Assembly (NCBI GenBank): GCA_037833965.1 | Contig: AP031356.1 | Span: 6,780,501-6,844,500 of the forward strand | Length of the DNA stretch: 64,000 nt | Reading direction: 5' to 3' | Source: Marchantia polymorpha subsp. ruderalis | Taxonomy: Eukaryota > Streptophyta > Marchantiopsida > Marchantiales > Marchantiaceae | In this document: in pieces, positions 2,518 through 64,000 of the stretch | Numbering within the stretch: the first letter of the stretch is position 1 | How the letters are laid out: each line of letters starts with the position of its first letter | Program-made: the position numbers and the translations under genes | The notes under the pieces: model-generated | Told to the model about the DNA's origin: nothing | The model's input: only the letters and a program-made list of their open reading frames with translations | Databases searched by the model: none

Positions 2518-3205
2518 TTTTATAATATTTGAGGGCTCTCATGTGCCATTAGATACATTCCAACAATCTCACTGTATACTGAATCGTCGACGAAATGAGA
2601 GTCCCTATCGAAAAAATATCTCATTTTGACCAATCAGCAGATAATCTATTAGGGTCATATCCACTCCGCGAAGTCAAGGCCGAAGGAGCTCTATACGATC
2701 CCCAGAGACTCTACGTAATACCCCTTGTTCGAAATTGAATCTCTCCCGAACCTGCTGGCCCAAAGGGCACGAAGACTAGAGGGAGGGGACTTTGTTTGTC
2801 TGACAGGGACCTGGACTATCATAAACAAGAAAAAAAACTGAATGCTGCATATTGAAAACAAAATGCTTATTCAAATGGAGAGAAGTCTACACAGCAAATT
2901 TCAAAAACTTTCTCAGGATTTTAGGTTTAAAATTTAAATTTTCAAAGCTACAAAACTTTTAGACAAAATGATTACGCAACTAAAAACAAGTCTTTATACC
3001 AAATTTAAATCTACACACAAGCTATTTACTTCCCGACTTAGTTTGAATGAAAATTAAAACAAAATTCACACAAAAACTTCGCCAAATAGGCAGAATTTAT
3101 GGAAACACTGACTTGCAACTGGCTGATATTAAAGAGAGAAAATCTTCCCCTTTTAAGGGATGAATTCTCATAAGTCTAAAGTATCTTCAATTTAACTCTG
3201 GAGCC
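2518..3205. other. Intergenic, nothing recognised
   Basis: AT-rich sequence without a supported gene. Its right edge holds the 3' flank of the LEA-like gene that reads toward it from the right. Confidence 0.5.
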
Positions 3206-3210
3206 AGATT

Positions 3211-6200
3211 TTAAGCTGTGAGATACTGACATCAAGCATGCATATCGTAGCGTTATTGCTTGTCCACTCAAGAACCATATGAAGGATGCGCGCAATCAGA
3301 ACAAGCTAAGGTTCTCTTCGACATCGCACAAAGTGCAGGAATATATAAAAACTGGAATTAAGAAAAGAAATTCCTTCACCTTTTTACCAGCCTGCAATCA
3401 GCCAAACGGTGCTTATCAGTCCACGGACGTAAAACCTGCGTGACAACACAACTGCGATTCACATGCTGAAAGAAGAACGTGATTTAGAGAAAAAATACCT
3501 TTCGCACGAAACGCCATGTCTTGTGCTTGGGCTTAGCAGCCTGCCCCAATCCCTCAGCGTGTGCTTCGGCCTGCCCAGTCTTCTCGGCTACAAAATTCTT
3601 GGTCTGCTCCGTGGTGTGAGCAGCGGAATCCTCGGCCAACAGAGGAGTGCTACACTGAGATCATGCATGCATACCGTAGCGTTATTGCTTGTACAGTCAA
3701 GAACCATATGAAGGATGGGCGCAATCAGGACAAGCTTTGGTTCTCTTCTTTCACCCGTCATTGCACCAAGCGCAGTAACCTTTACAAACTGAAATTATGT
3801 TAAGAGTTTCCATCACCTTGTCACCAGCCTGCAATCAGCCAAACGGTGCTTATCAGTCCAAGGACGTAAAACCTGCGTGACAACACAACTGCGATTCACA
3901 TGCTGAAAGAAAAAGTGATGTAAAGAAAGGTACCTGTCGCACGGAACGCCCTGGCTTGTCCTTGGCCTCAGCAGCCTGGCCCATTTCCTCAGCGTGTGCT
4001 TGGGCCTGCCCAATCTTCTCGACTACAGACTTCTTGGTCTGCTCCGTGGTGTGAGCAGCGGAGTCCTCGGCAAACAAAGGAGTGTTACACTGAGATCATG
4101 CATGCATATCGGAGCATTATTGCTTGTACAGTCAAGAACCATATGAAGGATGGGCGCAATCAGGATAAGTTTTATTTCTCTTCTTTCACTCGTCATTGCA
4201 CCAAGCGCAGTAACCTTTACAAACTGAAATTATGGTTAGAGTCTCCATCACCTTGTCACCAGCCTGCAATCAGCCAAACGGTGCTTATCAGTCCACGGAC
4301 GTAAAACCTGCGTGACAACACAACTGCGATTCACATGCTGAAAGAAGAACGCGATTCAGAGAAAAAATACCTTTCGCACGAAACGCGATGTCTTGTGCTT
4401 GGGCTTAGCAGCCTGGCCCAATCCCTCAGCGAGTGCTTCGGCCTGCCCAGTCTTCTCGGCTACAAAATTCTTGGTCTGCTCCGTGGTGTGAGCAGCGGAG
4501 TCCTCGGCCAACAGAGGAGTGCTACACTGAGATCATGCATGCATATCGTAGCGTTAATGTTTGTACAGTCAAGAACCATATGAAGGATGGGCGCAATCAG
4601 GACAAGCTTTGGTTCTCTTCTTTCACCCGTCATTGCACCAAGCGCAGTAACCTTTACAAACTGAAATTATGGTAAAAGTCTCCATCACCTTGTCACCAGC
4701 CTGCAATCAGCCAAACGGTGCTTATCAGTCCACGGACGTAAAACCTGCGTGACAACACAACTGCGATTCACATGCTGAAAGAAGAACGCGATTCAGAGAA
4801 AAAATACCTTTCGCACGAAACGCGATGTCTTGTGCTTGGGCTTAGCAGCCTGGCCCAATCCCTCAGCGAGTGCTTCGGCCTGCCCAGTCTTCTCGGCTAC
4901 AAAATTCTTGGTCTGCTCCGTGGTGTGAGCAGCGGAGTCCTCGGCCAACAGAGGAGTGCTACACTGAGATCATGCATGCATATCGTAGCGTTAATGTTTG
5001 TACAGTCAAGAACCATATGAAGGATGGGCGCAATCAGGACAAGCTTTGGTTCTCTTCTTTCACCCGTCATTGCACCAAGCGCAGTAACCTTTACAAACTG
5101 AAATTATGGTAAAAGTCTCCATCACCTTGTCACCAGCCTGCAATCAGCCAAACGGTGCTTATCAGTCCACGGACGTAAAACCTGCGTGACAACACAACTG
5201 CGATTCACATGCTGAAAGAAGAACGCGATTCAGAGAAAAAATACCTTTCGCACGAAACGCGATGTCTTGTGCTTGGGCTTAGCAGCCTGGCCCAATCCCT
5301 CAGCGAGTGCTTCGGCCTGCCCAGTCTTCTCGGCTACAAAATTCTTGGTCTGCTCCGTGGTGTGAGCAGCGGAGTCCTCGGCCAACAGAGGAGTGCTACA
5401 CTGAGATCATGCATGCATATCGTAGCGTTAATGTTTGTACAGTCAAGAACCATATGAAGGATGGGCGCAATCAGGACAAGCTTTGGTTCTCTTCTTTCAC
5501 CCGTCATTGCACCAAGCGCAGTAACCTTTACAAACTGAAATTATGGTAAAAGTCTCCATCACCTTGTCACCAGCCTGCAATCAGCCAAACGGTGCTTATC
5601 AGTCCACGGACGTAAAACCTGCGTGACAACACAACTGCGATTCACATGCTGAAAGAAGAACGCGATTCAGAGAAAAAATACCTTTCGCACGAAACGCGAT
5701 GTCTTGTGCTTGGGCTTAGCAGCCTGGCCCAATCCCTCAGCGAGTGCTTCGGCCTGCCCAGTCTTCTCGGCTACAAAATTCTTGGTCTGCTCCGTGGTGT
5801 GAGCAGCGGAGTCCTCGGCCAACAGAGGAGTGCTACACTGAGATCATGCATGCATATCGTAGCGTTAATGTTTGTACAGTCAAGAACCATATGAAGGATG
5901 GGCGCAATCAGGACAAGCTTTGGTTCTCTTCTTTCACCCGTCATTGCACCAAGCGCAGTAACCTTTACAAACTGAAATTATGGTAAAAGTCTCCATCACC
6001 TTGTCACCAGCCTGCAATCAGCCAAACGGTGCTTATCAGTCCACGGACGTAAAACCTGCGTGACAACACAACTGCGATTCACATGCTGAAAGAAGAACGC
6101 GATTCAGAGAAAAAATACCTTTCGCACGAAACGCGATGTCTTGTGCTTGGGCTTAGCAGCCTGGCCCAATCCCTCAGCGAGTGCTTCGGCCTGCCCAGTC

Positions 6201-8013
6201 TTCTCGGCTACAAAATTCTTGGTCTGCTCCGTGGTGTGAGCAGCGGAGTCCTCGGCCAACAGAGGAGTGCTACACTGAGATCATGCATGCATATCGTAGC
6301 GTTAATGTTTGTACAGTCAAGAACCATATGAAGGATGGGCGCAATCAGGACAAGCTTTGGTTCTCTTCTTTCACCCGTCATTGCACCAAGCGCAGTAACC
6401 TTTACAAACTGAAATTATGGTAAAAGTCTCCATCACCTTGTCACCAGCCTGCAATCAGCCAAACGGTGCTTATCAGTCCACGGACGTAAAACCTGCGTGA
6501 CAACACAACTGCGATTCACATGCTGAAAGAAGAACGCGATTCAGAGAAAAAATACCTTTCGCACGAAACGCGATGTCTTGTGCTTGGGCTTAGCAGCCTG
6601 GCCCAATCCCTCAGCGAGTGCTTCGGCCTGCCCAGTCTTCTCGGCTACAAAATTCTTGGTCTGCTCCGTGGTGTGAGCAGCGGAGTCCTCGGCCAACAGA
6701 GGAGTGCTACACTGAGATCATGCATGCATATCGTAGCGTTAATGTTTGTACAGTCAAGAACCATATGAAGGATGGGCGCAATCAGGACAAGCTTTGGTTC
6801 TCTTCTTTCACCCGTCATTGCACCAAGCGCAGTAACCTTTACAAACTGAAATTATGGTAAAAGTCTCCATCACCTTGTCACCAGCCTGCAATCAGCCAAA
6901 CGGTGCTTATCAGTCCACGGACGTAAAACCTGCGTGACAACACAACTGCGATTCACATGCTGAAAGAAGAACGCGATTCAGAGAAAAAATACCTTTCGCA
7001 CGAAACGCGATGTCTTGTGCTTGGGCTTAGCAGCCTGGCCCATTTCCTCAGCGTGTGCTTGGGCCTGCCCAAAATTCTCGGCTTCAGAATTCTTGGTCTG
7101 CTCCGTGGTGTGAGCAGCGGAGTCCTCGGCCAACAGACGAGTGCTACACTGAGATCATGCATGCATATCGTAGCGTTAATGTTTGTACAGTCAAGAACCA
7201 TATGAAGGATGGGCGCAATCAGGACAAGCTTTGGTTCTCTTCTTTCACCCGTCATTGCACCAAGCGCAGTAACCTTTACAAACTGAAATTATGGTAAAAG
7301 TCTCCATCACCTTGTCACCAGCCTGCAATCAGCCAAACGGTGCTTATCAGTCCACGGACGTAAAACCTGCGTGACAACACAACTGCGATTCACATGCTGA
7401 AAGAAGAACGCGATTTAGAGAAAAAATACCTTTCGCACGAAACGCGATGTCTTGTGCTTGGGCTTAGCAGCCTGGCCCATTTCCTCAGCGTGTGCTTGGG
7501 CCTGCCCAAAATTCTCGGCTTCAGAATTCTTGGTCTGCTCCGTGGTGTGAGCAGCGGAGTCCTCGGCCAACAGAGGAGTGCTACACTGAGATCATGCATG
7601 CATATCGTAGCGTTAATGTTTGTACAGTCAAGAACCATATGAAGGATGGGCGCAATCAGGACAAGCTTTGGTTCTCTTCTTTCACCCGTCATTGCACCAA
7701 GCGCAGTAACCTTTACAAACTGAAATTATGGTAAAAGTCTCCATCACCTTGTCACCAGCCTGCAATCAGCCAAACGGTGCTTATCAGTCCACGGACGTAA
7801 AACCTGCGTGACAACACAACTGCGATTCACATGCTGAAAGAAGAACGCGATTTAGAGAAAAAATACCTTTCGCACGAAACGCGATGTCTTGTGCTTGGGC
7901 TTAGCAGCCTGGCCCAATCCCTCAGCGAGTGCTTCGGCCTGCCCAGTCTTCTCGGCTACAAAATTCTTGGTCTGCTCCGTGGTGTGAGCAGCGAAGTCCT
8001 TGGCGCTCCCCAT
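3211..8013 (-). CDS. LEA-like protein with tandemly amplified exons
   Basis: Twelve exons can be placed on the minus strand: 8013-7867, 7585-7430, 7148-6993, 6711-6556, 6274-6119, 5837-5682, 5400-5245, 4963-4808, 4526-4371, 4089-3934, 3654-3499 and 3225-3211. Exon 1 starts at ATG (MGSAKDFAAHTTEQTK...). Exons 2-11 are each 156 nt, phase 0 and stop-free, bounded by CAG acceptors (usually ctcag) and AAG|GTATTT or CAG|GTACCT donors. The last exon encodes four residues and TAA. The predicted protein is about 573 aa. Each exon encodes a hydrophilic Ala/Glu/Lys/Gln-rich segment such as EKIGQAQAHAEEMGQAAEAK, with roughly 11-residue periodicity, resembling group 3 (LEA_4) late embryogenesis abundant proteins. 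These protect proteins and membranes during drying. Introns are about 281 bp. The splice model and family are inferred from sequence alone; a satellite array with fortuitous open frames is the alternative. Confidence 0.62.
3230..8010 (-). repeat. 437-bp tandem repeat array (about 11 units)
   Basis: Units recur every 436-437 bp, with equivalent points at 3463, about 3899, 4335, 4772, 5209, 5646, 6083, 6520, 6957, 7394 and 7831. A degenerate partial unit lies on the left. The six units from 4335 to 6956 look identical. The units at 6957 and 7394 share variants in the exon (an aattctgaagcc stretch on the coding strand). The unit at about 3899 is the most diverged. Each unit is one exon plus one intron of the LEA-like gene. 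The short plus-strand open frames in each unit are antisense shadows of the exon. Confidence 0.95.
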
Positions 8014-8289
8014 CTGATCAAATAATACGAGTGAAAGGAAACTGCGAGTAGTGTGTTATGCTGATCCAATACTAGCACGGGAATTCTTAGTACGGTCGTC
8101 GAGGGCTGAAACTGCGAGTACTGGATACTGATAAATCTGAACTGAATCAAAACTGGAAGCTGAGTGAACAAGAGTACGAGCTTGCAGTGTGTGTGATGCT
8201 GATCCAGTTCTGTCTTCCCTTCCCAATCTCCTCCACTTCCCTTCCCAAACTGAGCAAAATCCCGAAGTATTAGGGTCTCAGCCTTTACA

Positions 8290-30316: not shown

Positions 30317-33300
30317 TCAGAAACTCAATTCTACGTAGGCGGGTTCGTCACCTTTCACCAGCTCAAAAGTCTGGGTTAATCCAAAGTCATCGACCGAAAT
30401 GGTGTAGTCGCCAAGGAAGCCTCGGAAGGGTACCTCACCTTGCTCATTCACAACACTCTCGAAGCTGGTTTGCCACTCCTCCTTGAGGGCAAGGAGTCGG
30501 AGGCCTGCTTCGTTCACTCTCTTATCAGAGTCAACGAGATGAGCGTTCTTCCTGCACATTGTTCCTTCCCAGAAACCCCAGAACATGAGTCCTTCTATAG
30601 CAGGGTGAGCGAAAGCCTCTCTCAAAAGCACTTCCAAGTCGTCTGCACGCGTGAACTCATTCACCGACTCCACGTCAATCTCTGTGAACCAGATGGGAAG
30701 TCCTAAAGTGGCCAAATGGTCGAGAGCATGCTGAATTACAGGTCCAACCGGAACATCTATGTGACCTTGCAAGCCTATGCCTCCGATTGGGGCGCCGTTG
30801 TGGATCAGATCCACGATGTGCTCGACGTAAGCTGTGGGTGAGGACTTGCAGTCACAGCCATCCTCGATATGATAGTCGTTGACAAAGAGGACAGCCTCGG
30901 GGTCAACTTGATGGGCGAGTTGGAAGAGGTAGGGCAGGAACTGGGGGCCCAGTCTGTCCTTGTAGTAAGACCCGTGAAGCATCTCGTTGTTTACGTCGTA
31001 GTGCCTGAATCTTCCCTTGTAGCGTGACAGGAGTCCAGCAATTCTGGAATGGACTGCTTCTTCCAATTCTGGGGGCGCGAGGGGTTTCAGCCAGTCCTGG
31101 ATGGTATCCTCCGTCTCCCAGAGGATGCAGTGCCCTCTGCAAGGAATACCGTTTCTTTCACAGAACTGCAGCAGATCATCTGCGTTTTCGTAATGGAGTT
31201 CCCCCTGAAGCTTTTCGATCCATCCCCATTTCAGCTCATTCTCGAAGACGGCCCAGTTGAAGGTGTCCAAAAAGAACTTTGTGTATGCTGAGTTCTCCAA
31301 GCTATAATGGTTGATGGCTGAGCCGAGGGGAAAGCTAGAGCGATTTTGTCTTACAGTTACTCTTGTGCCTGGAGCAAGAGGTTCACCGTTTGAGCTTTGG
31401 AGCTTTACAACCACATCCCGCTTGCGAATCTACAAATGACAAAGAACACCGAGATCGAGTGAGATGATAATCAGTGGCAAATTTCAAAACGGTGGGCGCA
31501 AATGATAAGGAGCATAAACGTACGTTCAGTCATGAGGTAATCCTGTGCACTGTGTTTCCGAACTACGGAAAAGAAGTTTAAAAAACGAAGAGAAGCATCC
31601 AATTTCAGTATGATGATGATGATGATGATGGAAGCAGAGACATGACTGGAACGGAACAGAATTGGGGCTTTCGAACAAAGTGTGGGGTTCAGAGTGAGAC
31701 GCTGGGGGTACCTGATCCGTTCGTTCCCGGAGCATTGGAAATCGTGCAGAGCGATCGACAGCAAATATGTGCAGTCCGGCCAGCATCACGTCCACACCAG
31801 CACCAGGGCCCTGGAGATAGACGTGCACATTTTCAGGCTGCTTCTCTAGCCGAAAAGATCCCACTACCTCCTCCCATACGTCACCTGCGAGCACTTCACC
31901 ACCTTGAACCCACTTGCCATCCACACTCAGACACACATCCACTTTGTGCTTCATTCCGGGCTGATCAGGACTCCGAGTAGCCACCCATGCACTGACTTGG
32001 TACGACATGTTAGTCTGAAGTCTTTCAGTTATCGTCTGTGCAGGACCTTCCCAGTCATATGAACGATTCGTGATCAGCAGATAAGATCCCCTGAGTCCGG
32101 GTGGTGGTGAGTCCATGAAAGACTTCTGTGCAGCGGGGCCTAACAGCGTTGGGCACCCATGGGCAATACTCAATCGACAATTACCCTGAGGATACCAGTG
32201 TTTCAGTCCACTGTCAAAGTTGGTGTTGTGCACGATGTTCGTGCCAAATCTTGGATTCTGAAGACACAGACAGAAGTGGTTAAAACATGATCTTAACATC
32301 AGGCCCTTTCATATAGCAATGATTCAGATACCTGCTTGAAGCATCCTCTGTGACACAGATTGCTGGAAACCTTCCAACGTTGCTTCGATGGGATAGCCAA
32401 GAAAAAAACTTTGGCTATCCCAAAGTTTTTTCATCATTCCAGTGGTGCATCAAACTACAACAATGATGCTGGTATGCGGCCAGCAGCCAAAGTCTACAAG
32501 GAACACGAAGGGGTTGGTTGCATTGGTGCAAACCTGGAACAGTATAGGCCCCTCGACCTTCGGCCTCTCCGGTTTGAAGCAGAAGATGCTGTTGTAAAGC
32601 ACGTCAACGCCTCCGGGAGGACCTTCCATATAAATTGAAGCTCGCGCAGGTAGCTTATTCACAAGGAACTCTCCTTTGAGTTCCGACCACTGCGCACTTG
32701 ATGCATTGACTCTGTTCCACGATCGATATCAACGAGTAAGCGACTAGCCAAGGGCTTGAAAAAGTGAAGTCTTTAACAAGTGTTGGAGCAGAAAGACCAA
32801 ATTGTCGTACACAACGGCAGTTGACTTGACATCCTTATGATCGACAATCACGATCTGCGAAGCAGTAAGTTTTCTGAAAGCAATTAAAGGTGAAAGACGA
32901 TCGAAATTCTGTTTCCAGACAATGGCCATCTTCTGATGAGGGGAGTAATTGTATGCATAAAAATGATCAATCAAGACCGAACAAAAGTGGACACCAAGGA
33001 CACCAACCCTGAACTCACCTTCCAAGGGTCATGTACTGCTCCTTCCCATCGTATCCTTTCATGTAGAGCGTTGCCATCACCATTGCTTCCTTTACACCAC
33101 CACCGTTCACTCGAACCTTGGCAGAGACATGGTAAAGGGTACTTTCTTCTATGCGTCCCGTTATATCTTGCTCAATTCCCTGCCATGTTTCCGTTCGCTG
33201 TGAAGCGACTGCAAAGTACTTGCCAGTTTCGGGACCAATGGCACCCAAACTTTCGGTGACATATGCTTTACAACCCTTCTGTGTCCAACTTTTCAAGCCA

Positions 33301-36236: not shown

Positions 36237-36632
36237 TCCGAGTCCGTATTATTCCTTCCATATTCCCACGTGGCTTCCTTTCTAATCCGACGTGGCAACG
36301 CTTACTGTATTCTATGTGTATCGGTGACCTGTACTGTACTAGACTGGGTGACACTATAATGTTGTCCGACGTGGATGCTCCCCGAGCCTGCCTACATGGC
36401 AACTGTTCATTCATGTCAAATATTCGTTCGAGTCCGAGTCCGGGTATCATTTCTTCCATATTCCCACGTGGCTTCCTTTCTGAGCCGACGTGGCAACCAT
36501 CACAGTTTTCTATGTGTACCGGTGACCTGTACTGTAATAGACTGCGTGACACTATAATGTTGTCCGACGTGGATGCTCCCGGTGCCTGCCTACATGGCAG
36601 CTGTTCATTCATGTCAAATATTCGTTCGAGCC
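36237..36632 (+). repeat. 198-bp tandem duplication with ACGTGGC motifs
   Basis: Two units of 198 bp (about 36237-36434 and 36435-36632) are followed by a divergence point. Each unit contains CCACGTGGC (36266-36274 and 36464-36472) and GACGTGGC (36289-36296 and 36487-36494). These words match the ABA-response element core bound by plant bZIP factors. The block lies 1.1-1.5 kb upstream of the xylanase start. Weak open frames in it are not supported as coding. Confidence 0.85.
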
Positions 36633-42972: not shown

Positions 42973-45854
42973 ATGGCGCCTGTGCTGCAGCATTCCATCG
43001 CGGGGCCGGCGTGCTTTGTTGTGCCCCGGAGGACCATCGCCATCGCCGCCGCCGCCACAGCGCCAAGGTCTGCAGCTCCGAGGTGCAATGTGGCCTCCGT
43101 TGCCGAGCCGCAAGCGCCCCCTGCTGGCAGTCCCTCTCTTCCGACGGTATGGTGCTCGATTCTTGCGCTTCGTTTTCTGTCGAGAAATCCAGTCGTTCTT
43201 CCCGTCTTTCTTCCTGTGGCAGGCAGGCAGGCTGGTCTGGTGGGATTTTCGTGGCCAGTGTTTTGAGCTAGTTTTCGAGTGGTGGTTTGTGTTTGTGTGT
43301 TCGAGCGGAGACCGACCTTGGCCATGTTCCAAGTTTCGGCTCGGTGGTCTGCTTTTGTGGAGTGGAAGTGCGTCGTGCAGATTCAGATGGTCAGCTGATT
43401 GATTGAATCCTGTGACACTGCAGGGGTCGGCTGTGAGTTCGAGAAGGTACCCGAGGTCTGTGGCCCTGCGAACTGCGCTCTCCGAACCGGCAAAATCTGG
43501 AGCTAAAATTGGAGGTAATTCGACACTGCAATCCACATGTAGAGTTGGATTTTGGACGTCAAGAAAGAATGAAAATGATGAAACTCTTGCTGAGAGCCGC
43601 TGATTCGTAGCGTGATTCCGAGAATTTATGTTCGTGCGGCTGAGCTCTGAGTTCGATTTTAATCCGAGTTTTTGGACAAGAAGGAAATTTTGTGATGAAA
43701 AACCCTTGTGGAAATAAAAGTGCATAAAGCGTGCCTAAGCAATTGCTTCTACCTCAGCCAGTGTTAAATATTGCCGTCGTCCGATTCAATCTTGCAAGTG
43801 ATTGCTGTGAGCTGCCGTGAGGATTCCGTGGTTATGTCAGGTCAAGCAGCTCGTGATAATTGATCGAGCTTGGCGTTCTGACTTGAATTTTGAACCTTTG
43901 AGCCCAGAATAGGAAGAAGGCATGGAGCTTATGTTCAAGAAGCTGCTCTAAGAGACCAAGCCGAGGCATCGATGTCTTTCGTGTCTGCGTCGACTCCTGA
44001 TCTCTTCCTTCTCGACCTCGCGTCGAAGCTTGAAGATTCAATCGCACAGGATGGTCTTGCAAATGATCCACTGGCAAGACTTAGAGAAGAGGCCACGGAG
44101 GCAACTTTGAGCTGTCACTGGCCCACAAACAAGGATGAATCTTATCGCTTCACGGACGTGAAGTTTCTGAAACAGGCCAACATCAATCCTGTGAACGTGC
44201 CATCCGAGTCATCTTTCGATCCTGCATCGTTGAATCTGCCAGATTCTAATGGCAGCAGACTCGTATTCGTAGACGGAGTGCTGTGCAAGAATTTGTCGAG
44301 TCTGGAGGACGTGCCAGAAGGGGTGGTCATAGGGAGCATTTCGTCTCTGCCCAAGGAGGCTGTGGAAGAGCATGTCTTACCGAGGCTGTCAGGTGTTGCC
44401 AGAAGGAGCGAGGGAGACGTGTATGCTTGTCTGAATGGGGTTGGTGCCAGGGATCTCGTTGTAGTCATTGTGCCTACAGGTGTGAAGGTTCCGAAGCCTC
44501 TGTATGTTCTGTACTACTCAGCCCAAGGAGGTCCAGTTGGTGGCCCAGATTCTGCCTTTGCTCTTTCCAACCCTCGACTTCTTGTCAGCGTGGGAAAGGA
44601 TGCAGAGTTGGACTTGGTCGAAGACTTCACTGGAGCTCCGCAGACATTGTACTGGACGAATTCCGTCTGTGAGATTGACATTGCGGAGAGCGGTCGAGTT
44701 GGTCACAGCTACGTGCAGGAGCAGAGTCTGAACGCTGTCCACATTCGACAGACTTACGTTTCACAGGTTAACTTTACTCCTGTGAATCTGCGCAATACAA
44801 CACTGTTTCAGTGTGCCTCCACTCTCTCCTATAGTCCTCCTTGGTATCAGAAATCATCATTTCTTCATGCACGTCCTGGGTGAATTTTTCCGGATCTCCT
44901 CTTTCATTCAAATGCATATATCTCTGGGAGCTTGGTAGAAGTGTGTAGCTCACATTTGGACTCGTTCGCTAGTTTCATGACCAAGATATTTTTGTCTTCA
45001 GGTGACGGCGAGCACCTACAAGCTGGTCGAAGCTGGATTCGGGGGAAGACTCAGTCGTCACAACTTGAGCATTCAACAGCTTGGTCCAGACACCATCACC
45101 GAAATGTCCACATTTCTGCTGGCGGGTCGAAAGCAGCTCCATGACCTGCACAGTAAGCTTGTCCTGGATCATCCTAGGGGAATTTCTCGTCAACTCCACA
45201 AGTGCATTGTGAGTGATTCTTCGGGGCACGCAGTGTTTGATGGCAACGTGAGGGTTAACAGGTATGTCCCCCTCTGTCGGATCTGGAAAAAGTGACAATG
45301 TACTTTCATAGTCTGTCCCTTTGGATGCGAAGTGAATTGACCGAAGCCTGCCATGCTTGACTTCTTCAAAACAACACTCGATTTTTTTGCTCTGTACTGA
45401 AAGATATGCTAGGCGGCAAACTAGTTTCACCTCCGTCTTCATTTTATTTTGGTTAGGGGTTTTTCTGGTCCTTATGAATCAAGGTGGAAGATTACAACAT
45501 GCACGTCGTGAATGCAGATTTGCACAGCAGACCGATGCCGGACAATTAAGCCGAAGTCTGCTTCTTGCACCGAGGGCAACGGTGAACGTGAAACCCAACT
45601 TGCAAATTATCGCCAACGATGTCAAATGCTCTCATGGTGCAGCTATAAGTGATCTGGAGGAAGATCAGCTGTTTTACTTTCGAGCTCGGGGCATAGACGT
45701 CCAGACAGCGAGAAGTGCTCTGGTCTTCTCCTTCGGTGCCGAGGTGCTGCAGAAGCTGGTGGGAGAAGGTCTTCGGAAGAGGGTTGAGAATCTTGTGAAG
45801 AGCTCGTTAGCTGCAGAAGGCTACATCAAACCCGATCTTCCTGTCACAATTTAA
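42973..45854 (+). CDS. SUFD: SufD, plastid Fe-S cluster assembly scaffold subunit
   Basis: Five exons fit: 42973-43146, 43424-43514, about 43913-44766, 45002-45261 and 45518-45854 (TAA). The product is about 571 aa. Residues 1-60 are rich in Ala, Ser, Pro and Arg and poor in acidic residues, as in a chloroplast transit peptide. The core matches SufD: a FRFTD-like SYRFTDVKFLK, then a right-handed beta-helix. Within this are VQQLGPDT-like IQQLGPDTITE, LDHPRGISRQLHKCIV, FDGNVRVNRFAQQTDAGQ, NVKPNLQIIANDVKCSHGA and DLEEDQLFYFRARGID. SufD works with SufB and the ATPase SufC to build Fe-S clusters in the plastid stroma. The exon 3 acceptor is the least certain border (aatag|GA at 43913 or caag|AA at 43940). 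Intron 3 read-through at 44767 is excluded by the GT donor. Confidence 0.9.
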
Positions 45855-47663: not shown

Positions 47664-48668
47664 TCAATCGCACTTCCACCGGGAGGTAGGAACACAGCTC
47701 AAATAATGGCACCAGCTGCATTCCTTGTTCGCATTCACATCCTTGAAGAGGGCAACCACGGCAGCGGTGTAGCCGGCCAGGAGCAGGACCAATGACACCA
47801 CCCACAAGATGTACTGAATTGGGCTGTGCTTCGACACGGGCAAGTCTGCTGCTCTGACGTCGCGCAGATTCACCCATCCGTATTGTGGTTTGACCAGAAA
47901 CACGAATCCCAAGAGAAGACCACCCAGAAATCCTCCGATATGAGCGAAGTTGTCCACATGAGGCATCAATCCGAATGCCAAATTCACTGCGACGATGATA
48001 ATTAGGGACCATAGAGCCATGCACTTGTGGGCATAGATAGTCCAGTTTGTGATGAGATCCGATATCGAAGCTCCAAGAAGACCAAACAATGCTCCTGATG
48101 CACCCACGGAGATCTGATTTTCGATGAATAGAGCGGACAATAAGCTGCCTCCGAAGCCCGACACCACGTACACAATGCCGATTCTGATGGATCCAAACTC
48201 TCGTTCCAATCTAAGTCCTATGAGAAGAAGGCCAATCATGTTGGCAAGAAGGTGGAACACTCCTGCGTGAAGCCACATGCACGAGACCAAGCGCCATCCC
48301 TCGTCCTTGTTGATGACCAGATCCCTATCCAGCCCTCCCATTCTGCGCAAGGTCAGGGCAGAGGGCCCGAGCAGTGGGTTCTCGCTCCACGGCTGGAAGG
48401 AAAATCTGCCCAGCCAGCGCGCAATACATGTCGTGTCGGTTTTCTTCGGGCAGTCGTTGTAGTACATGGTGAGAATGAACACGACGATGTTGGCCACGAC
48501 GAAGAGTGGTATGAGAAAAGCGAAGTGCCTGCGTTCCTCCATGGGCATGGCAATCATGCCCGGATGATTCGACGAAGTGGGGTACACATAGTTCTTGCTG
48601 CTATTGGATCTCTTCCTCAGAGATCCATCTTGTTCCACATCTATTTCATGCCTCCCTGAAGCCCCCAT
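47664..48668 (-). CDS. RBL: Rhomboid-like intramembrane serine protease (RBL type)
   Basis: A single-exon gene of 334 aa with a basic, Ser-rich cytosolic N-terminus and seven hydrophobic segments. The rhomboid landmarks are present: GWRLVSCMWLHAGVFHLLANM (the WR and LHAG loop, with Asn143 for the oxyanion hole), GASGALFG with catalytic Ser191, and HVDNFAHIGGFLGG with catalytic His243. The TM1 to loop-1 layout, with a long Cys-containing luminal loop (NDCPKKTDTTC), fits plant secretory-pathway rhomboids of the RBL1/RBL2 kind, which cleave transmembrane substrates in the Golgi. The start is the first Met of the frame, in good context and 225 bp from a TATA box. Cys residues in the tail (CSWC) are notable. 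Substrates are unknown. Confidence 0.93.
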   Translation of the reverse strand: MGASGRHEIDVEQDGSLRKRSNSSKNYVYPTSSNHPGMIAMPMEERRHFAFLIPLFVVANIVVFILTMYYNDCPKKTDTTCIARWLGRFSFQPWSENPLLGPSALTLRRMGGLDRDLVINKDEGWRLVSCMWLHAGVFHLLANMIGLLLIGLRLEREFGSIRIGIVYVVSGFGGSLLSALFIENQISVGASGALFGLLGASISDLITNWTIYAHKCMALWSLIIIVAVNLAFGLMPHVDNFAHIGGFLGGLLLGFVFLVKPQYGWVNLRDVRAADLPVSKHSPIQYILWVVSLVLLLAGYTAAVVALFKDVNANKECSWCHYLSCVPTSRWKCD

Positions 48669-60963: not shown

Positions 60964-63900
60964 TCTTGCCTCGCGGCCTTACTGGTTCTACAAAGCGAAG
61001 AAAATGCGAGGTTGGAAGAAAGCAATGGTTGGGAGCTCATGGAAGGGGTAAGAAGCAAGCTCAACTCATTATCATTAATGGTTTCATGGAAGTACACAAG
61101 GTGAGAGTTTTAATTGATCCTTGAGCAACTGAGAATTTTCTATCAAGGAGTGTTGCTATGAAGTTAGGTTTGATGTTGATGAAGGACGTGAGTGAAGAAG
61201 TTGAATTGCCAAACGGGCAAACTGAAGTGATAGAAACACTACCACGAAGTGTAGAATTATCCATAGGTAGATACAAGGAGAGCATTGAATGGAGAGTAAT
61301 TCGTTTAGCTCGATATGATGTCATCCTTGGAATGCCATGGATGGAACAATATAATCCGAAGGTAGATTGGAGAAGAAAAGTGATTACAAGTAGTGGATGG
61401 AAGATCTATGGAGATAGAATTAGATCTCAGAATAGAAATTTACCCCTCTTTGTGATGGATACAACATCCATTTCTAGAGATGATGTATGTTTCCTTGGAC
61501 TTATAAGAGATATTGGGTCCACGGACAAACCTTACATCCCGGAGTGCTTGAACGACATTTTTATGGAGTATAAAGATGTTTTTCCAGATGATCTACCTGC
61601 AGGATTACCACCAAAGAGGCGAGTAGATCACAAGATTGAGGTGATACCTGGAAGTACACCAACTTGCAAAGCTCCATATCGTTTGGCTCCAAACAAATTG
61701 GAAGAATGCAAAGCTCAAGTGGAGGAGATGTTGAGCAAGGGATTCATTCAACCAAGTGTTTCACCTTATGGAGCTCCAGTACTCTTTGTGAAGAAGAAGG
61801 ATGGATCCATGAGACTATGTATCGATTATCGCGGGTTGAATCAGCAAACGGTGAAAAACAAATATCCATTACCTCGTATGGATGATTTGTTTGATCAACT
61901 TCAAGGAGCGAAGTATTTCACCAAGCTAGATTTGAGAAGCGACTACAATCAAATTCGAATTGCAGATGAAGATGTTCACAAGACAGCTTTTCGTACTAGG
62001 TATGGACACTTTGAGTATCTGGTGATGCCTTTTGGTCTCACTAATGCACCAGCTACATTCATGGGATTGATGAACGATATCTTTCGCTCTTATCTAGATA
62101 AATCTGTCATTGTTTTTCTAGATGATATATTGGTGTATAGCAAAACTTTGAGTGATCATAGAAGTCATTTACGAGAGGTACTTCAAGTTTTAAGAGACAA
62201 TCAATTGTATGCCAAAGCTTCAAAATGTGAATTTGGCAAGTCAAAAGTAGATTACTTGGGTCATAGAGTTACAGCTACAGGAATCCAAGTGATGAGTGAG
62301 AAGATAGATGCCATTCAGAAATGGATAGCACATGAGGATCAAATTCAATTGAAGAGTTTTCTAGGGTTCACTGGATTCTATCGTAGATTTGTGAAAGGTT
62401 TTGCTCGACTAGCTCAGGCCTTGACTTCCATGTTAGGGAAAGGTCAAAAGTGGAGATGGGGAACAGCTCAAGAGTTAGCTTTTCAAGCATTGAAAGATGC
62501 TTTGTTACACGCACATATTCTCAAGTGGTATGATCCTAACCGTTCTATCAAGTTGGCCACTGACGCATAAGGTACAACAGTAGGTGGCATACTTCAACAA
62601 GAATGGAAGGATGGATGACATCCATTCACTTTCTATTCTCAAAAGTTGATGGCGGCGGAACAAAATTATCACACGACAGAACGAGAGGAGTTAGCCATCG
62701 TGTTGGCAACCAAACATTGGAAGCATTATTTGGGTGATAAGGAGTTTGTGGTGGAGACTGATCATAAACCCTTGGCTTAATTGGAAACTTAGAAAGATCT
62801 GTCCAAACGACAAATTCGATGGGAAGAGTGGCGTCAACGCTTCAACATGAAGATTGTGTACGTGGAGGGAAAGAAGCAACTTGCAGATACTCTCACACGC
62901 TTGCCTTGTTTGAATCATGTTGCAGAAGTGAAAATTCAGGCGGATTGGTGGAGCAAGATGTCACAAGCCACAAAGGAGGAAGAAGAGATCACTCGGGCAC
63001 TACAAACTGGAAAGGCAGAGAAATCTCTAGGTTTGGCGTTTTACAATCAGCGTATATGGATTCCACAAGATCACGATTTGCGCACAATGATTTTGGCAGA
63101 AAGTCATGATACAGCCATTGCAGGTCATGTGGGAGTGGAGAAAACCGTGGAGAGTATACAACGAGTGTACTATTGGCCCAAAATACGTGAGGATGTGGAG
63201 TCTTACGTTCGAAGTTGTGTTGCTTGTCAACAAAACAAGACAAGTAATAAAAAACCAGCGGGTTTATTACAGCCTCTTCCTATTCCCGAACAGCGATGGG
63301 AACATGTCACCATGGATCTTGTATGTGAGTTACCAAGGACTTCGTTAGGACATGATTCAGTGGTGGTTTTTGTGGACAAATTGATCAAGATGATTCACAT
63401 TAGGCCAACCACAAAAACGGTAACAGCTCCACAACTAGCTCAATTGTATCTAGATGCAGTTTTTGTGAATCATGGCTTAAGCAAAGTGTTAATCACGGAT
63501 AGAGGTACTCACTTCACTAGTTTATTTTGGAAAACTTTGTTTAGTTTTTTCAAAACAAAACTATCAATGTCAACGGCCTATCACCCTCAAACTGATGGAC
63601 AAACTGAGAGGGCAAATAGAACCATAGAGGATATGCTACGAGCATTCACATTAGAAGAGCAAGAAGAGTGGGACAACCTTTTGCCACTTGTGGAATTTGC
63701 ATATAACAATTCTGTTAATGCATCCACAAAAGCGTCTCCATTTTTTCTTATGTATGGAGCTCATCCGATAACTCCTTCAAGTTTGATGAGACTTCCGAAA
63801 GGAGAGGAGTTTTCGACCAAAGTTGCAGCAGTCAACGAATTCGTGGAGCATATTCACCGAGGACTACATCAGGCCAAGGAGAAGTTGGTGATAGCTCAAA

Positions 63901-64000
63901 ATCGGCAAAAGCAGCATGCCGATGCTCATCGTTGAGAAGTGATTTTTGAGGTTGGAGATTATGTTTGGTTATCTACAACGAATTTGTCTCTTGTAGGAAC
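60960..64000 (+). pseudogene. pol: pol (protease, RT, RNase H, integrase) remnant
   Basis: One frame, offset from gag, is continuous without indels but has stops at 61122, 62568, 62616, 62778, 62790 and 63933. The protease active-site region (VLIDP then stop) is lost at 61122. RT motifs are clear: [37 protein letters not shown] and the catalytic FLDDILVYS near 62120. The RNase H segment holds three of the stops. Integrase has a His/Cys zinc domain (GHVGVEKT...CVACQ) and a core with ITDRGTHF and TDGQTERANR. The start of a C-terminal GDYVW segment is cut by the window end, so a chromodomain cannot be judged. Confidence 0.92.

Follow-up and report, generated by a model that had tools for sequence, protein, structure and literature searches.

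An array of exon-like repeats in Marchantia polymorpha is probably a tandemly amplified, degenerate copy of a two-exon LEA-like gene

In a 64,000-nucleotide stretch of contig AP031356.1 (C7) of Marchantia polymorpha subsp. ruderalis (C7:6780501-6844500; hereafter the window), a head-to-tail array that resembles a series of exons is very probably a dispersed, degenerate copy of a small two-exon LEA-like gene that was amplified in tandem. Judged from the sequence of the array and its relatives, an ordinary duplicated gene remnant is the most likely identity, and the array appears to be mostly or wholly non-functional, its exon-like look probably reflecting the portion of the old coding frame that every copy has inherited. 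A first-pass annotation had instead joined the units as exons into a single working gene whose length could be tuned; the repeat that it described is real, and it is the reading of that repeat as a gene that is not supported, because the ancestral acceptor and stop lie in every unit.

The array pattern is far beyond chance. Tandem Repeats Finder, run on the window, returned a period of 437 bp with 11.0 copies and 96% matches, and the 11 units follow one another at 437 bp with a sole exception (435 bp from unit 10 to unit 11; Table 1). On the minus strand, the orientation given in the first-pass annotation and upheld here, each of the 11 units holds an open segment whose length is divisible by three (147 nt for the unit with the ATG, 156 nt for the remaining ten), directly followed by GTA in all 11 and directly preceded by CTCAG in the ten units that do not have the ATG. 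Plus-strand open stretches of at least 60 codons also recur (73-126 codons), each shorter than one unit. The eleven open frames amount in essence to a single observation, because the units were copied from one another. Amplification proceeded in whole units, as had been proposed. Units 4-8 show no differences over 437 bp, which indicates that the array is young or homogenised; relative to these, unit 2 differs at 10 sites (nine in exon 1 and one in the intron), unit 3 also at 10 (the same nine and one in the 24-nt upstream part) and unit 9 at 11, every one in the 3' part of the unit, and divergence is greatest in units 10 and 11. The array length is that of the assembly, in which five identical 437-bp units can be mis-assembled.

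Table 1. Coordinates of the array, its units and the flanking features within the window.
Feature	Position	Strand	Basis or remark
Tandem array of 11 units, spacing 437 bp (435 from unit 10 to 11)	3225..8004	-	Repeat finding, unit alignment
5' leader of unit 1	8014..8210	-	Homologous to L010
Exon 1 of unit 1, 49 codons, sole ancestral ATG	7867..8013	-	69 nt shorter than in full-length relatives
Putative intron of unit 1, 107 nt	7760..7866	-	Homologous to the relatives' intron
Putative exon 2 of unit 1, 25 codons, with stop at 7684-7682	7682..7759	-	Matching exon with stop in units 2-11
Unit 2, 156-nt exon of the first-pass annotation, first 24 nt being duplicated 3' flank	7430..7585	-	Alignment to L010
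Unit 3, corresponding 156-nt segment	6993..7148	-	Open frame
Unit 4, corresponding 156-nt segment, identical in units 4-8	6556..6711	-	Open frame, unit alignment
Unit 5, corresponding 156-nt segment	6119..6274	-	Open frame, unit alignment
Unit 6, corresponding 156-nt segment	5682..5837	-	Open frame, unit alignment
Unit 7, corresponding 156-nt segment	5245..5400	-	Open frame, unit alignment
Unit 8, corresponding 156-nt segment	4808..4963	-	Open frame, unit alignment
Unit 9, corresponding 156-nt segment	4371..4526	-	Open frame, unit alignment
Unit 10, diverged segment	3934..4089	-	Open frame, unit alignment
Unit 11, last copy	3499..3654	-	Open frame, unit alignment
3' flank of the last copy, holding the proposed 'tiny exon with a stop'	3073..3225	-	Homologous in pieces to the L010 3' flank

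Relatives of the units were sought across the genome (241 Mb, 9 contigs). A whole-genome DNA search with two units as query gave at least 34 matches, which lay in the array itself and at places at C7:3.84-4.07 Mb, with none of those listed on other contigs; a protein search with an intact exon 1 gave at least 42, including six protein-identical copies from C7:3.934 to 4.046 Mb and more distant matches on C5, C6 and elsewhere on C7. Eleven 10-kb stretches from the related gene cluster on the same contig (C7:3.87-4.07 Mb) and its surroundings, and one stretch from beside the window, were searched with tblastn; this recovered 18 distinct exon-1 copies outside the window (from 19 rows, because L018 and L019 share one copy), and the stretch beside the window yielded none. 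The start pattern used for gene models took in 14 of the 18, with four diverged copies falling outside it (L014 near 4156, L015 near 6432, L016 near 6906 and L019 near 6260). Eight of the 14 modelled copies gave a two-exon, 93-aa gene with an intron of 114 or 136 nt and a second exon that starts AGDKV after TGCAG; three (two of them in L014 and the third in L018) yielded no such model under a strict acceptor pattern, L012 has a stop at codon 2, and the L010 and L011 models have another C-terminus than the 93-aa genes.

These loci fall into recognizable groups. L013-L018 (C7:3.934-4.067 Mb) form a LEA-like cluster in which six copies have an identical exon-1 protein with silent differences. At three places (L014, L015 and L016) a diverged copy lies 2.1-2.3 kb beyond a canonical copy, a pairing that suggests segmental duplication. 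L010, L011 and L012 (C7:3.866, 3.888 and 3.895 Mb) are degenerate relatives with a changed exon-2 end.

Aligned to the relatives' gene, a window unit covers the leader (in unit 1), exon 1 minus 69 nt in frame, the intron and the start of exon 2, with leader and exon 1 of unit 1 matching L010 at 84.5% over 330 aligned positions. The family's second exon, with its acceptor (TGATTGCAG, then GCTGG...), lies inside every stretch that had been read as an intron and has its own in-frame stop in all 11 units (the peptide of unit 11 differs); an exon-amplified gene would hold no such internal terminal exon. The exon-2 end and 3' tail in the window resemble those of L010, L011 and partly L012, and are unlike those of the canonical copies. 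By this alignment, each unit is apparently a cut-down copy of the whole two-exon gene and not an exon, so that what was amplified would be a truncated gene, where the first-pass annotation had seen a 156-nt exon. Only unit 1 has both the ATG and the leader, which are absent from the other ten; splicing would presumably follow the ancestral sites, and at most unit 1 could yield a product, of 74 aa.

The boundary between units is equally informative. L010, the longest of the listed DNA matches outside the array, aligns with the unit to either side of the junction and not across it: its match to the window tail stops at query base 523 (window 5378), and its exon-1 homology starts at query base 82, which corresponds to 5382 one unit on. 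This places the joint where the 3' flank (TGTTGGCCGAAGG in L010) meets exon-1 codons 4-6 (GCCAAGGAC), two sequences with a few bases in common. From this position it follows that ten units carry other codons where the ATG end stood, that the last unit continues into a flank aligning piecewise with that of L010, and that the upstream 24 nt of the '156-nt exon', non-exonic in this nearest relative, are copied 3' flank together with their CAG. The exon borders described earlier are present as described (AG before ten units, GT after all, phase 0), but their acceptor is an AG in the flank; the ATG of the outermost unit is likewise present, as an original start that was kept while the other units lost theirs at the joint, and the tiny terminal exon with a stop falls within the 3' flank of the last copy. 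An in-phase acceptor of this kind is easily come by: when shuffled noncoding sequence was joined to the same frame, an in-phase YAG preceded any stop in 47% of 2000 shuffles, and in 32% when it had to lie at least 15 nt upstream.

Coding constraint was assessed from silent and replacement changes, counted over 44 codons in the array and 67 codons in the canonical copies. The counts (silent, then replacement) are 0 and 16 for units 4 and 10, 0 and 9 for units 2 and 4, and 2.3 and 17.7 for unit 4 and L010; pairs among units 1, 2, 4 and 10 have 0 silent and 9-17 replacement changes each (0 and 1 for units 1 and 4), and pairs with unit 11 have 2 silent and 2-14 replacement changes. The replacement excess is not universal, with 2 silent and 2 replacement changes between units 4 and 11 (dS 0.069, dN 0.020) and dN slightly lower than dS against L013a for both unit 10 (0.163 and 0.192) and unit 11 (0.212 and 0.240). 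For L010 against L013a, dN is 0.121 and dS 0.190, so some constraint may have acted on L010 during part of its history. Among the six canonical copies, nine of the 15 possible pairs were counted, and these have 2-6 silent and 0 replacement changes. Regional divergence (13 comparisons) gave opposite patterns: between unit 4 and L010, 20 of 132 exon-1 bases differ compared with 16 of 257 in intron and tail (p=0.005), and between the canonical L013a and L013c, 4 of 201 in exon 1 compared with 28 of 248 (p=8e-5). For the two exon-1 parts, the intron and the tail, unit 4 differs from L010 by 8.3%, 27.1%, 7.5% and 5.3%, respectively (L013a and L013c: 4.8%, 0%, 9.6% and, downstream, 12.7%), so the exon excess sits in the last 48 nt of exon 1 (13/48) and the first 84 nt (7/84) have diverged no more than the intron. 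The array therefore shows no clear purifying selection, whereas the canonical copies do show it, and the codon-level constraint between units expected of an exon-amplified gene is not clearly seen. Homology to an intact gene, loss of start and leader in most units and relaxed constraint, as in a tandem array of duplicate pseudogenes, were all found.

Simple drift does not account for a patch in units 2 and 3 (7585-6993), where nine replacement changes relative to units 4-8 cluster in exon 1 and intron and tail carry one change or none. Diversifying selection on the array would concentrate replacements in exon 1 and leave intron and tail nearly identical, as in unit 2 against units 4-8 (132 exon bases hold 9 changes, every one a replacement, and 281 bases of intron and tail hold 1; Fisher p=2e-4) and in units 4 and 10 (16 replacement to 0 silent, p=0.014 if silent sites are hit proportionally). 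We nevertheless give this explanation very little credence: units 2 and 3 carry the unit-10 base at six of the nine sites, so short-tract conversion inside the array explains most of the cluster, and the other three sites are too few to argue selection. Independent events are few, the tests were picked after the data had been seen, and units 4 and 11 differ by as many silent as replacement changes. A paralog elsewhere was considered as donor of the patch and set aside, because the best outside match (L010) reaches 90% and unit 10 reaches 94%, which makes a source in the array likelier.

ACGTGTC-type elements act as ABA-responsive elements. ACGTGTC occurs within 500 bp upstream in all 11 scanned copies with an intact exon 1, and all six canonical copies carry GGCACGTGG there as well. 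In the 500 bp upstream of unit 1 and of L010, neither ACGTG nor CACGT occurs; the degenerate L011 and L012 each show a single pentamer of this kind and no ACGTGTC.

Likeness to the Pfam LEA_4 family (PF02987) is weak in the two intact relatives (14.7 and 15.1 bits, E values 0.02-0.03) and in the 74-aa two-exon product of unit 1 (16.4 bits, E value 0.009), and all of these scores are far below the gathering score of 51.1 bits, so the LEA-like label is provisional for the whole family; the LEA-like parentage suggested earlier is accepted on those terms. The search of the joined exons that the first-pass annotation had put forward as a check gave, for the 569-aa protein of all 11 exons, no LEA_4 match at E<=1. 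Scorpion-peptide and DUF models scored high for the joined protein and were rejected, because no stretch passes alone and the scores are sums of weak repeats. The outcome comes close to the last of the results that the first-pass annotation had listed as speaking against it, namely no LEA-like score and no codon-level constraint between units.

These observations bear unequally on the remaining explanations. That 52-aa modules are spliced together from one 11-exon gene into a long LEA-like protein of variable length would account for 11 of 11 segments being open and multiples of three, with AG (in ten units) and GT in phase 0, yet it is very improbable given the terminal exon inside every 'intron', the flank origin and easy chance occurrence of its acceptor, the lack of clear purifying selection, the failure of the joined protein to match LEA_4 at E<=1 and the absence of the relatives' upstream ACGTGTC. 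A variant in which a broken LEA-like gene was reborn as a modular one would have the old terminal exon skipped, or its first 12 nt (AGDK) used as an in-phase micro-exon, and exon-1 copies joined across the array, with array length setting protein length and replacements spread by conversion; we regard it as just as implausible. It is possible, though on balance doubtful, that unit 1 is a working, truncated two-exon LEA-like gene with ten bystander copies in its 3' region. It has an ATG, donor, acceptor and stop, together with leader homology and TATAAATA at -284; missing are ACGTGTC, the conserved exon-2 end and 23 exon-1 codons, and purifying selection is not clear. A working unit 1 is compatible, as a sub-case, with the array being a degenerate copy.

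The degenerate-copy explanation draws its strength from several sides: the two-exon, 93-aa structure of 8 of the 14 relatives, whose kind of acceptor recurs in each unit; the second exon with its own stop in all 11; the break in the L010 match at the junction; the replacement-rich divergence of unit 4 from unit 10 and from L010 beside silent-only canonical paralogs; and an ACGTGTC absent from unit 1 and present in every scanned copy with an intact exon 1. Against it count the exon-1 frame and GTA donor kept in 11 of 11 units, both of which a very old dead array might lose (the identity of units 4-8, however, points to a young or homogenised array), and unit 1, which with its ATG, leader, donor and acceptor could be expressed. 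The comparisons without replacement excess (units 4 and 11, and units 10 and 11 with L013a) and the confinement of the exon excess to the last 48 nt also count against it.

We infer the following order of events from the alignments. A relative of L010 (C7:3.866 Mb), its exon-2 end already changed, would have been copied to C7:6.784-6.789 Mb, and an in-frame deletion between two similar GGCTGC[C/T] stretches would have removed 69 nt of its exon 1. An unequal exchange may then have fused the 3' flank (...TGTTGGCCGA) to exon-1 codons 4-6 (GCCAAGGAC), creating a 437-bp unit with neither ATG nor promoter, and further unequal crossing over and conversion could have led to 11 units, five of them identical. 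If unit 1 is transcribed, its transcript would probably be spliced at the ancestral sites to give the 74-aa product, with units 2-11 as untranslated 3' sequence.

Together, these results suggest that the array illustrates cleanly how a gene fragment, once duplicated in tandem, can pass for a multi-exon gene, with open segments and splice-like borders inherited from one parent frame, and gene predictors could well annotate such an array as a long repetitive protein. Should the exon copies prove to be joined in RNA, a pseudogene would here have given rise to a new modular gene.

Elsewhere in the window, a glycosyl hydrolase family 10 domain (30317-31411, minus strand; Pfam E value 2e-48), part of a SufB/SufD-like iron-sulphur assembly protein (43972-44880, plus strand) and a rhomboid domain in a single 334-codon open frame (47664-48668, minus strand) were observed, as were reverse transcriptase and integrase zinc-binding domains (61158-63932, plus strand) that probably belong to an LTR retrotransposon. 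A two-copy tandem repeat of 198 bp with 91% matches lies at 36237-36630.

Among the literature matches listed (titles and the starts of abstracts), no description of the array was found, and its closest counterparts are in the same genome. With the C7:3.87-4.07 Mb cluster the window copy shares exon 1, the intron, the exon-2 start, donor, acceptor and leader, and thus the homologous parts and common splice sites by which the family is recognized; unlike the cluster, it lacks 69 nt of exon 1 and the upstream ACGTGTC, has another exon-2 end and 3' flank and is tandemly amplified. A 93-aa product under purifying selection is not found in the window units, because they would yield 74 aa at most and their divergence is mostly replacement-rich (units 4 and 11 excepted). 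L010 (C7:3866411-3866205 and flanks) is like the window copy in exon-2 end (...GYCAWC.D), 3' flank and leader, and unlike it in having a full-length exon 1, with no junction and no tandem array within the matched stretch. Beyond this locus, excerpts of earlier reports describe LEA-like (MpLEAL or MpLEA-like) products of the liverwort Marchantia as hydrophilic and ABA-induced (PMC9370073, PMC10715061), and M. polymorpha LEA-like transcripts as ABA-induced (PMC9370073); the array family is likened to these genes by description.
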